Shown here piece by piece: positions 28,303 to 55,115 of a DNA stretch of 64,000 bases. The stretch's first letter is position 1. The number at the start of each line of letters is the position of its first letter. The position numbers and the translations under genes are program-made. Source of the DNA: Pilasporangium apinafurcum (lineage: Eukaryota; Oomycota; Peronosporomycetes; Pythiales; Pythiaceae). The stretch covers positions 625,916 through 689,915 of the forward strand of contig BCKE01000013.1 of NCBI GenBank assembly GCA_001600495.1, written 5' to 3'. The notes under the pieces are model-generated. The model was not told where the DNA came from. It worked only from the letters and a program-made list of their open reading frames with translations, and ran no database searches.

Positions 28303-29473
28303 TCTAATTTAGCAATACGGAGAACCTTCTGCAGCTCTAACTCAGTGGCATAAACTTTTTTGAAACATCTTCTACAGACATGATTCTGATTCGAACTTAG
28401 CAGAAGCATCATAGTAGATCTCAGCTAAAATTATTATTGTAATAAACTCTTCAATTCTAGCAGCGAGGTCGTTTATCATCTCAGTTTTGGATTTCGAGTG
28501 CCACTTGATGCTTTTTTCTCGTTCTCTTTTGGTTGCATTGACGACATTGATTTCAGTTAAAAGGTATGCACAAATATAGATCATCTACCAAAGTTTGAGT
28601 GTACAATATCTATATGAAAGCTTGATTGTGTTTTTGTATCAGGTTTTCCAACGGACAAAAGCGATGATGTCAGACATGTATCACAAAATCTCCAAGTAGT
28701 TATCGAACAACTACCACGAAGTCCTTCGGGACCTCGGAGCTGATGTCCAAGCAAAAAAGGATGTCAAGCAAGGCATCAAAAACAATACTCACGTGATCTC
28801 ATTATAAGTTCAAGGTGCTATTGAAGTACAAGATGGAAAGGACTAGAGGATGCGTGATCGAGTGTGAGGAACATTATACAATAAAGGCTTGTTCTCAATG
28901 TAGGAGAATCAACCACACGATGAAGTACCACAAAGTCTGGCTGTCCTCACTGCAACTTTATCCTTGGCAAAGATGCCAATGCTGCTAGAAACATCTTTCT
29001 TAAGAATGAATACCTACTCGTCTGTATTCATGGAGTCCAGGTGTCAGAGATGGCTATTCCGCGGCCGTCTAGTCTTAATTAGCTTTTGCTGGTCAAGTCG
29101 GGTCCAAACAAGAAAACAGGAAGTTCTTGCTGAGTTACTTTCGTATCTCATATGACCTCTGAAGTGTACGTTCCACATAGAAGAACATCAGTCTGTTCTC
29201 CTAGTGAGGTGTGTTGAGTGAAAGAGCCCTATCTCTAATTTTAGCCAATAGAATCGCCTGGATTGCTAAAAGATGGCCCAGTCAGACAAGCAACATCGCT
29301 CCCGCACATTGTCAATTGTGCATCCATCAATCCTCCTCTTGTCACCTGCTAATCAGACCCACACCGTTCGCTTCCTTCCATATTTTTCTTCTCTCCTCTA
29401 TTCCTCACCAGAATCGCATTTCGCATGCGAAATACAAGAGGCGAATAATATACCAGCATTAGAGAAAGCCAGT
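28303..29473. other. Intergenic region containing Fanzor remnant A
   Basis: 1.17 kb with no intact gene. Positions 28797-29165 are a decayed Fanzor C-terminus plus its 3-prime block (see that entry). The rest shows no recognisable coding sequence. Confidence 0.5.
28797..29165 (+). mobile_element. Fanzor (eukaryotic TnpB) remnant A
   Basis: Plus-strand translation gives HYKFKVLLKYKM, then VIECEEHYTIKACSQC, then after a 2-base frameshift CPHCNFIL followed by GKDANAARNIFLKNEYLL. This is the zinc-ribbon (CxxC...CxxC) and last RuvC motif (normally DRDxNAARNIFL) at the C-terminus of TnpB/Fanzor nucleases; DR is changed to GK here. A conserved non-coding block follows (about 29034-29165), shared with remnants B, C, D and E. 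No upstream part of the nuclease is recognisable, so the copy is dead. Confidence 0.75.
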
Positions 29474-29809
29474 ATGGGATTGCGCGCTAAGACCAAGAAG
29501 TTGATGCGGAAGCTCAGCGGCCGCGACGACAGCAAGCAGGAAGAAGTCATGCAGTTGCAGCCTGTAGCACTCGCAGGCGCCAGTAAGCGGAGCAACATGA
29601 GCACTTCTCGTCTATGCAGCTCATTTGCAATGACCATCTCGATGGAAGACTTAAGCGAAACCCGACGAAAAGCGCTGAGCGACGGCGGCGTGTCCTGGAC
29701 ACAGTGTGAGACTTGTGCGCGTAGTTTTGTGATCTATGCGAGCCAGTACAAAGATTTTTGCTCGCTAGATTGTAAAACAGCCTCGCTCTACCGCCTCTCT
29801 TTTTCGTAA
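29474..29809 (+). CDS. Small Cys-rich hypothetical protein
   Basis: 111 aa from the ATG at 29474 (MGLRAKTKKLMRK). The frame is open further upstream, but the composition there is not protein-like. The N-terminus is basic; a glycine at position 2 could be myristoylated. The C-terminal part contains WTQCETCARSF and DFCSLDCKTA, a CxxC plus CxxxC pattern suggesting a small zinc-binding fold, followed directly by the stop. I do not recognise a family. Confidence 0.6.
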   Translation: MGLRAKTKKLMRKLSGRDDSKQEEVMQLQPVALAGASKRSNMSTSRLCSSFAMTISMEDLSETRRKALSDGGVSWTQCETCARSFVIYASQYKDFCSLDCKTASLYRLSFS

Positions 29810-29993
29810 ATGCAAATTTGGAATGGTGCTATCCTGGCGTGTAGATGGGTAAATTGGTGTAAATTTTTTTGTAAGAAGAATGCTGTAGCGTGGGTATTTA
29901 AGCAGTGCTTTGTGCGTTTTCGTCACGTAAGAAGACAATGGAGATTTTCATGGTGTGATGGTAGAACTGTAGTGTATATATTCAAATTATTCG

Positions 29994-30991
29994 TCAGTCG
30001 GCCACTCTTTCGGCACCCTCTTCGTCGCTTCCACCCTCACGGTCGCTTTCACTGTCTCTTTCACTTTCATCCTCACTTTCATCCTCTTCCGTTTCGTCTT
30101 CATGCTCTCTCTCTTCTTCATTATCCTCATTCTCTCCGTCCTCGTCCTCGTCCTGTCCTCCACGCAGTTCCTCTTCTGAAAACATCAACGTTCGACACGT
30201 TGGACATATGACGTTGCTAATAGATAAACACACGACATATGAGTGATGAGGAACGCAATCTCCGTCCCAGACAACGCACTTACTTGTGCTTCACGTATTC
30301 ATTGTGGCAGCTTACATGCATCACATGTCCACAAGGCAATACATTCACACTCTCCAGCGACGAGAACGTGATCTAAACTCACACATGCACAGTTACTCTC
30401 CTTTCCTTTCACCAGTTTATGGCAATCAATTCGATGTACTTACCTCTAGACAAATGGGACATTCACGATGCATGGATCCCTCTAAACACTTGTGCTTGTT
30501 CGCCAAAGAATGTGGATAGCACCCACAGCATTTCTTGCAGTGATAATAGTTTTCACGCCCACCGACACTATAATAGAAGCAAAGAAAGTGACCAGTACAT
30601 CATCGGAAAAGGTCACCTGTTCAAAACTGTCATACCGACAAATGCCGCACTCATCGCAGTGGAAGATTTGCTTTTCCTTTCCAGCGTCGTCGAAAAGATT
30701 GCAAATCTTGCAAAAATAATCTGCCATGCACAGCTGGCAATTTGTACACTCGCGTGCACACTGCAAACATAGTAATACAAGTGAGTTGCATGTTATTTGC
30801 ATGAGAATTTGGTCATTGTATCCCACCGGCTGGACAGTCTGGCAGCCACTGCAGCGCATTTTTCGGATGGCGTGGCGGTCAATTTCGTGGTTCTCAAAGG
30901 TTTCGTTGTGGCAAAGTCGGCAGTTCACCCATTGCTGACAACACTCCGCCAGCACCTCACAGCGCCGTTTGTAGTGCGCACATCCCGTCAT
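29994..30991 (-). CDS. CHY zinc-finger / RING ubiquitin ligase (RCHY1/Pirh2-like)
   Basis: Five exons: 30991-30827, 30760-30636, 30567-30444, 30372-30284 and 30216-29994 (241 aa). The start MTGCAHYKRRC begins directly at the CHY zinc finger (CAHYKRRC...CCQQWVNCRLCH...MRCSGCQTVQP). A CTCHY finger follows (CTNCQLCMADYFCKICNLFD...HCDECGICR, then YYHCKKCCGCY), then a C3H2C3 RING (CPICLE...LPCGHVMHVSCHNEY...CPTCRTLMF). This order is that of RCHY1/Pirh2 in animals and the CHY-RING ligases of plants, which ubiquitinate regulatory proteins. The human C-terminal zinc ribbon is absent. Instead the protein ends in an acidic tail of about 55 residues rich in Glu, Asp and Ser. Upstream in-frame sequence is open, so the true start could be earlier. 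It diverges from the small membrane protein with 168 bp between. Confidence 0.9.
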
Positions 30992-31159
30992 GATTGGAAA
31001 GAAATCGATGTGATGGCTTTCATCAATGAGACGAATGATGGTCGTCCAATTAGAGGTCCGTCCATTAATTGTATCATATGATTCTTTGGGATCCACCGTT
31101 TTCACTTGATTAATAGACCATATTCTTGTGCATTTCTCAAGACAAAACGCAAGAACGAA

Positions 31160-54754: not shown

Positions 54755-54775
54755 ATCTCAAAGGATTATGTGAAA

Positions 54776-54880
54776 TACCAATAGATACCGGTATCTCAGG
54801 AAGGATCTCCTGTTTTTGTTTGGGTCAGACTTGACTAGCAAAATCTAGACGATCTCAGAGTAGCCATCTTCGCCAAAGTG
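54776..54880 (-). mobile_element. Fanzor 3-prime block, copy E (minus strand)
   Basis: Read on the minus strand it contains GATGGCTACTCTGAG, GTCTAG, TTTTGCTAGTCAAGTC, GACCCAAACAAAAACAGGAG and ends CCGGTATCTATTGG. These are the same words in the same order as the non-coding block of remnant B. It starts inside the block and has no protein-coding part. It faces copy D. Confidence 0.65.
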
Positions 54881-54927
54881 TATCCTACCGATAGGAGAAA
54901 TTAGGAATAGAGAGTAATGCATTGCTC

Positions 54928-55115
54928 ATGACTATGCGAAGTTGACTGTGTGAAACACTATACAATAGCAACTTGTTCTCAAAGCCCAGGTGTCGGAGAT
55001 ATCTACTCTGTGGTTGCCTGGGCTTAATTGGCTTTTGCTAGTCACATCGAACCCAAACAACAAACAGGAGATCCTTCCTGAGATATTTCGGAATCGTACA
55101 TGATCTCTTGAGATA
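54928..55115 (+). mobile_element. Fanzor remnant D, zinc-ribbon deleted
   Basis: A short coding trace (VKHYTIATCSQ) runs to the bases TTGTTCTCA, then joins straight to the non-coding block, exactly as in remnant C. The block here folds well: AGCCCAGG and CCTGGGCT are perfect complements 26 bases apart, and CAGGA...TCCTG forms a second hairpin. It ends TACATGATCTCTTGAG. Confidence 0.7.

Follow-up and report, generated by a model that had tools for sequence, protein, structure and literature searches.

A 64,000-nucleotide stretch of the Pilasporangium apinafurcum genome (G000:C13:625916-689915; hereafter the window) carries several short, broken pieces of DNA that resemble Fanzors, the eukaryotic TnpB-type nucleases, and the question raised by this locus is what kind of element left them there. 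We consider it likely that these copies are old, non-autonomous ghosts of an IS607-type Fanzor2 transposon, and that in many full elements of the same clade the transposase TnpA and the N-terminal ~200 residues of Fanzor2 share the same DNA.

The window copies belong to an IS607/Fanzor2-type family

A first-pass annotation, made from the letters of the window, had described five decayed Fanzor copies, A to E, three of which keep coding-end motifs. The copies are indeed present, genuine Fanzor remnants and related to one another beyond chance (self-comparison of the window with the basic local alignment search tool, BLAST; E 3e-76 to 9e-8), and in longer relatives the motifs fall within Pfam PF07282, as its zinc ribbon and RuvC-III. 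We searched the whole genome (36.5 Mb, 136 contigs) and found that the parent family, here called W, is preserved on contig C62 as a frame of 504 aa. This open reading frame (ORF) matches PF07282 (zinc ribbon, 3.7e-21) and PF12323 (HTH_OrfB, 2e-10), and by alignment it has the RuvC-I DPG, the alternative RuvC-II glutamate and the RuvC-III DRD. The annotation had named membership in an unrelated zinc-finger family, detectable with a hidden Markov model search, as a finding that would overturn its proposal; the matches to both Pfam families, the RuvC residues and the fold agree in speaking against such a family, for which we found no support, and we regard this alternative as refuted. Two PF07282 matches lay in giant frames, of 2332 and 8140 aa, which proved, when the sequence was read, to be artefacts of runs of N.

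The best solved relative, by sequence and by fold, is the mimivirus Fanzor2 (9b0l), with a fold match of 3.8e-20 versus far weaker matches to Fanzor1 structures (9cer, 1.3e-4; 9cey, 6.8e-4), in searches that mainly covered the nuclease core. The nearest named homologues of W, and of a second Fanzor family in this genome, H, come from Phytophthora, Nothophytophthora and Globisporangium. The Resolvase domain PF00239 scored above its cut-off at places on C62, C55 and C1 that overlap Fanzor matches, all the long matches listed being broken, and similarity to P0118, a Phytophthora infestans protein, also marks an IS607-like serine recombinase in W elements. The single W piece given to Pfam reached 9.2e-4 and 19.8 bits for Resolvase, below the cut-off of 23.3. 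On these sequence comparisons, W is of the IS607/Fanzor2 type.

The annotation had found five sites correctly, but their limits needed correction and a sixth fragment, at 42.4 kb, had been overlooked. The pieces are as follows.

28541..28599, + strand: copy A, leader piece from immediately ahead of the TnpA start, matching the C62 element at 79.7% (E 2e-8)
28640..29166, + strand: copy A, degenerate coding end of Fanzor (RuvC-II region, zinc ribbon, RuvC-III) and the right end
37723..37966, + strand: copy B, ghost left end, 83% to the left end of L021, with related left ends genome-wide
37964..38284, + strand: copy B, coding 3' end (zinc ribbon, DRDVNA) and right end
42392..42715, + strand: sixth copy, left end only
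45001..45172, + strand: copy C, a piece of leader and one of Fanzor coding sequence (HYKFK, YT.KTC), with matches to L021, L013 and the C62 element
45173..45265, + strand: copy C, right-end piece, placed by the element searches
54754..54911, - strand: copy D, mini-element of ~160 bp, its left end (54911-54875) joined to its right end (54875-54754)
54934..55115, + strand: copy E, short coding piece and right end

Copy A comprises both 28541-28599 and 28640-29166 and therefore starts upstream of position 28797, where it had been thought to begin; its coding end is 76.7% identical to the C62 element over 489 bp (E 6e-103), and the right-end alignment places it as well. The sixth copy is 94.6% identical to the left end of copy B over 42398-42637, and its entire stretch is 68% identical to the C62 element. 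BLAST with one H element and one element of a third family, T, matched nothing in the window. Just upstream of copy A, 28458-28522 matches 63722-63785 near the window end at 81.5% in the self-comparison. Beside copy C lies a pair of inverted repeats of ~50 bp, 94% alike and ~295 bp apart (44363-44411 / 44706-44754), which looks like a small terminal-inverted-repeat element.

Ghosts of an old family

Copy B (37723-38284) consists of two unlike halves, an element left end fused to a right end, and its junction (5076|7057 in L023 coordinates) is shared with two other loci, L010 and L016, whose flanks are unlike those of copy B. If a ghost is a copy that keeps both ends, has lost the nuclease gene and shares its junction with dispersed copies, then B is one together with L010 and L016, and D likewise has both ends. 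Moreover, the ghost-type right end, aligned in 22 copies, extends ~55 bp beyond the end point of the fuller copies (L023/L045, L002, L004, L006, L047, L048 and probably L017). Taken together, the shared junction, the paired ends of D and the distinct right end indicate that B and D, at least, arose by internal deletion, and the common junction and ends suggest, from sequence, that they were once mobile. The reading that all window copies are plain decay fragments, which never moved as ghosts, draws on the lack of a recognised pair of ends in A, C, E and the 42.4-kb copy and on the age of the copies by divergence; given that the exact deletion junction of B recurs between unlike flanks, that D retains both ends within ~160 bp and that ghost and fuller right ends differ, we regard it as a possible but doubtful account.

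The annotation had further taken the likeness of the copies as a sign of recent activity, and here it was not borne out. The mean pairwise Kimura two-parameter (K2P) distance among 22 right ends, four of them from the window, was 0.289 (range 0.062-0.609), versus 0.0157 over the last 400 bp of 15 H copies; therefore the window family is old and H young. Its proposal thus stands for the Fanzor remnants and falls for their recent movement: the window holds Fanzor remnants and ghosts of a family that is old and ordinary. Neither terminal inverted repeats nor target-site duplications were seen in the W end alignments, in an inspection by eye that was not systematic and included no empty sites. The H family (L025-L042) has open frames, with N runs or ambiguity letters in many copies, and from its sequences is plausibly active; the N-terminus of one member, L026, starts with an AT-hook-like MKRRGRPP. 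A middle piece of TnpA (residues ~107-176) is matched at more than 20 dispersed places in the genome (for example C5:212717-212917), in some followed by residues 185-216, and these are perhaps another class of deleted element.

A transposase hidden in the Fanzor N-terminal extension

An N-terminal extension of ~200 residues is present in the long W homologues (P0001-P0003, P0035 and P0036; 599-621 aa) and in most of the T homologues (608-664 aa), and in the C62 element the DNA of this extension is, in another frame, a broken IS607 TnpA. For homologues available only as proteins, we listed the residues that the other frame could encode and compared them with TnpA. The hidden frames of P0001, P0002 and P0003 were compatible with 83, 75 and 80 of 92 P0118 TnpA residues, where the control gave a mean of 0.19-0.20 and a maximum of 0.34. 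RVSS and DRLxRFG, which we take to be serine recombinase motifs, stood 58-70 codons apart in the hidden frame of 45/90 homologues that were 480 aa or longer and in the control frame of none of them; in the first homologue set the pair was found in 32/52, as opposed to 2/6400 shuffled extensions. Under the genome codon usage, taken from three window ORFs, the chance that 172 P0118 TnpA codons leave the Fanzor frame open is 2.5e-5.

The extension also survives where the transposase is broken. At L024, a T locus, four stops interrupt the TnpA frame, and the Fanzor frame runs open through 691 codons; at L002 (C55) there are three stops in the TnpA frame, and the Fanzor-frame extension has 145 open codons between the locus edge and its first stop. 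Pfam gave no Resolvase match to the L024 TnpA pieces, so the identification of TnpA there rests on frame position, on reading and on compatibility with homologues. P0121 cannot encode the TnpA active-site motif; it shares 57% identity with L024 in the extension (116/204) and 74% in the core. Because it persists where TnpA is broken, in L024 and P0121, the N-terminal domain would appear to be useful in its own right.

The overlap in IMG/VR loci

We assembled 154 IMG/VR loci from two alignment searches (80 of at least 505 confirmed from the first, all 74 from the second); single T and W proteins gave no confirmed DNA relatives in IMG/VR, while the alignment queries did. TnpA was detected in 45 of the 154, and an overlapping Fanzor ORF in 41 of these, the relative frame always being the same. 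The four with TnpA and no overlap (L064, L079, L183 and L188) are all bacterial-type TnpBs, of which L183 and L188 carry the alternative glutamate, so that overlap and alternative glutamate are separable.

When synonymous codons were permuted within TnpA, keeping its codon usage, the Fanzor frame was open beyond the permutation expectation in most of the 29 non-identical overlapping loci (P<0.05 in 26/29, P<0.01 in 21/29). Consistent with a constrained second frame, 118/322 fourfold sites (37%) had changed in overlapped TnpA versus 404/658 (61%) in the Fanzor core (p=3.5e-13, optimistic since the eight pairs compared, picked by hand and mostly among the closest, share loci), and in non-overlapped TnpA (10 to 88 codons per pair) third positions changed more in 7/8 pairs, L145/L158 being the exception. 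The first possible Fanzor ATG lies between -14 and 265 nt from the assumed TnpA start, and 7 to 85 nt after it in 18/29 loci; among 15 loci checked, 10 have no intervening ATG. In the C62 element the two starts are 10 nt apart, with A at -3 and G at +4 around the Fanzor ATG.

We asked of structure models whether the extension forms a domain. The T model has helices over residues 11-133, in blocks with a predicted local distance difference test (pLDDT) score of 73-90 except for one of 62, followed by a poor linker at ~141-203. The model of a W homologue is mostly below pLDDT 50 in the extension, residues 111-140 and 151-170 being better, so that only for the T family, whose extension is predicted to be helical, do the models support a domain. 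In both models the alignment with 9b0l starts at chain residue 53 of the latter and covers part of its N-terminal extension, part of which is therefore ordered in the mimivirus Fanzor2. Finally, extension identity was within 0.10 of core identity in 11/15 protein pairs, to which constraint from TnpA may contribute.

Several observations weigh against our reading of these elements. The permutation was not significant in three loci (L078, L144 and L154), the 29 loci include near-copies (L139/L143/L144 and L151/L153), and in the fourfold-site comparison loci recur among the eight pairs and the Fanzor core is an imperfect yardstick for TnpA. Dual coding should place extra constraint on TnpA third positions, yet codon-position rates over 178 pairs gave no sign of it (third/second ratio 1.83 for the overlap and 1.72 for the core), perhaps owing to saturation. 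Other ATGs stand between the two starts in 5/15 loci, and L142 and L163 lack an ATG at the assumed TnpA start. The full pair of motifs was not seen in 45/90 long homologues, including Naegleria P0183 and the H relatives. In this genome no element with both frames intact was found, the C62 element having stops in both its TnpA frame and its Fanzor-frame extension. The disorder of the W extension counts on the same side, as does the right-end RNA, the consensus structure of which is weak and which in single folds reached z -2.1 in one of five, the other four lying at -0.2 to -1.3.

Some of these points would suit a second frame that is open yet untranslated in Fanzor2, its core starting by reinitiation, splicing or an internal start and its openness a matter of codon bias. 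P0132-P0139, at only 423-463 aa, point the same way, since P0137, the one read, begins at the core, and the annotation of P0118 runs the TnpA Resolvase domain straight into the Fanzor helix-turn-helix (HTH) as if by splicing or frameshift, which may be an annotation device or real. However, permutations that preserve codon usage rarely yield open frames, fourfold sites are constrained in the eight pairs, extension identity stays close to that of the core and the T extension is predicted to fold; we therefore hold an untranslated frame to be unlikely. The same P0118 annotation, together with a relative frame that is constant in 41/41 loci, could instead point to a single TnpA-Fanzor fusion made by programmed +1 frameshifting, the overlap serving the frameshift. 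Frameshifting needs only a short open overlap, and in 23/29 loci the Fanzor frame is open across at least 150 TnpA codons, which leaves this fusion improbable. For a conserved overlapping gene pair, as judged from sequence, there is good computational support.

A probable glutamate switch within the T family

The T sequences divide by the position of the RuvC-II glutamate. Of 36, 23 (T1: L024 and P0121-P0142) have it at the canonical site, with A or S at the alternative site, and 13 (T2: P0143-P0155) have it at the alternative site, with G or P at the canonical one and, in five, DLG for DPG. L024, on C135, has alanine six residues before the zinc ribbon, where the alternative glutamate would stand. 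In a quick tree of 65 sequences (12 of 23 T1, 11 of 13 T2, glutamate columns excluded, no Fanzor1; supports from the Shimodaira-Hasegawa-like approximate likelihood-ratio test, SH-aLRT, only), T1 forms one group (100) inside the eukaryotic/viral clade (100), two state changes suffice, and the root branch has support 78. T2 is not a single group, P0152 standing apart, and the group of T1, T2 and L166 has support 100. Judging from these alignments and the tree, T1, which is present in this genome, has a canonical-site glutamate though nested among alternative-site Fanzors.

A separately acquired bacterial TnpB, or a contaminant, would be another source of the canonical glutamate, and Yoon et al. 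(2023, PMC10711439) noted that canonical-glutamate Fanzors appeared to be mis-annotated bacterial TnpBs. This is a very unlikely origin for T1, given its fully supported nesting, the hidden TnpA motifs in 12/14 T1 database proteins of at least 480 aa, as in their alternative-glutamate sisters, and a T1 relative (88%) on the 875-kb contig C7. Tc1/mariner-like transposase frames (HTH_23, DDE_3) adjoin the T Fanzor L024 (L005:508-1351, C135).

Other features of the window

The window also contains a dynein heavy chain gene, a 4662-codon open frame at 8682-22670 on the + strand (18 Pfam families listed at 1e-5). Searched against Rfam at the gathering threshold, the window gave no match.

A model for the overlapping pair, and its comparison with known systems

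We think it probable that the overlap arose by overprinting: the Fanzor2 nuclease would have gained an N-terminal domain through a +1-frame reading of TnpA, the domain would have become useful itself, and in one branch the glutamate would later have returned to its ancestral bacterial position. The Fanzor2 N-terminus would be read from the same DNA as TnpA, one nucleotide further on, with both proteins made from a single transcript, most likely by leaky scanning. TnpB-type nucleases play a role in retaining their elements, a point touched on in the discussion of Saito et al. TnpA would move the element; an RNA from the right end would guide Fanzor2 to cut sites that have lost it, repair would restore it, and ghosts could be mobilised in trans.

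If this is true, an RNA-guided nuclease is written over most of a transposase gene, making an overlapping gene pair of striking size, which would explain why the serine recombinase of oomycete Fanzor2 elements is easily missed and would give an origin for the variable Fanzor2 N-terminus. It would also affect the trimming of Fanzor2 for genome editing, because translation may naturally begin far upstream of the core, and T1 and T2 would offer a natural pair for the effect of glutamate position on cleavage.

Fanzor2 is known from IS607-type elements (PMC3627910; PMC10711439), and it shares with the families described here the DPG, the alternative glutamate, the C4 zinc ribbon, HTH_OrfB and an IS607 TnpA. 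Phytophthora species are listed there with one Fanzor2 each (Bao & Jurka 2013, PMC3627910; Yoon et al. 2023, PMC10711439), and the passage of Bao & Jurka that names serine-recombinase Fanzor2 elements names no oomycete. The word 'overlap' does not occur in the main text of either paper, and the sharing of DNA by TnpA and Fanzor2 is not discussed under that word. We found no published report of this overlap in a search that left out most subscription papers and is accordingly weak evidence of absence.

Both the ghost concept and oomycete Fanzors were already known. The ghost Spu-1 loci of Spizellomyces punctatus (Saito et al. 2023, PMC10432273) are likewise short, with ends kept and the nuclease gene lost, and their ends differ from those of full loci, as in the window ghosts. 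They differ in being Fanzor1 elements with 30-nt inverted repeats and tested guide RNAs, whereas those described here are IS607/Fanzor2-type, have no clear inverted repeats and are known from sequence. Albugo laibachii and other oomycetes carry Fanzor1 transposons (Bao & Jurka 2013, PMC3627910), which are likewise oomycete Fanzor transposons. Unlike these, the families of P. apinafurcum resemble Fanzor2 by fold, by sequence and by their TnpA, and the closest solved structure to the W and T models alike is the mimivirus Fanzor2 (L79, PDB 9b0l).

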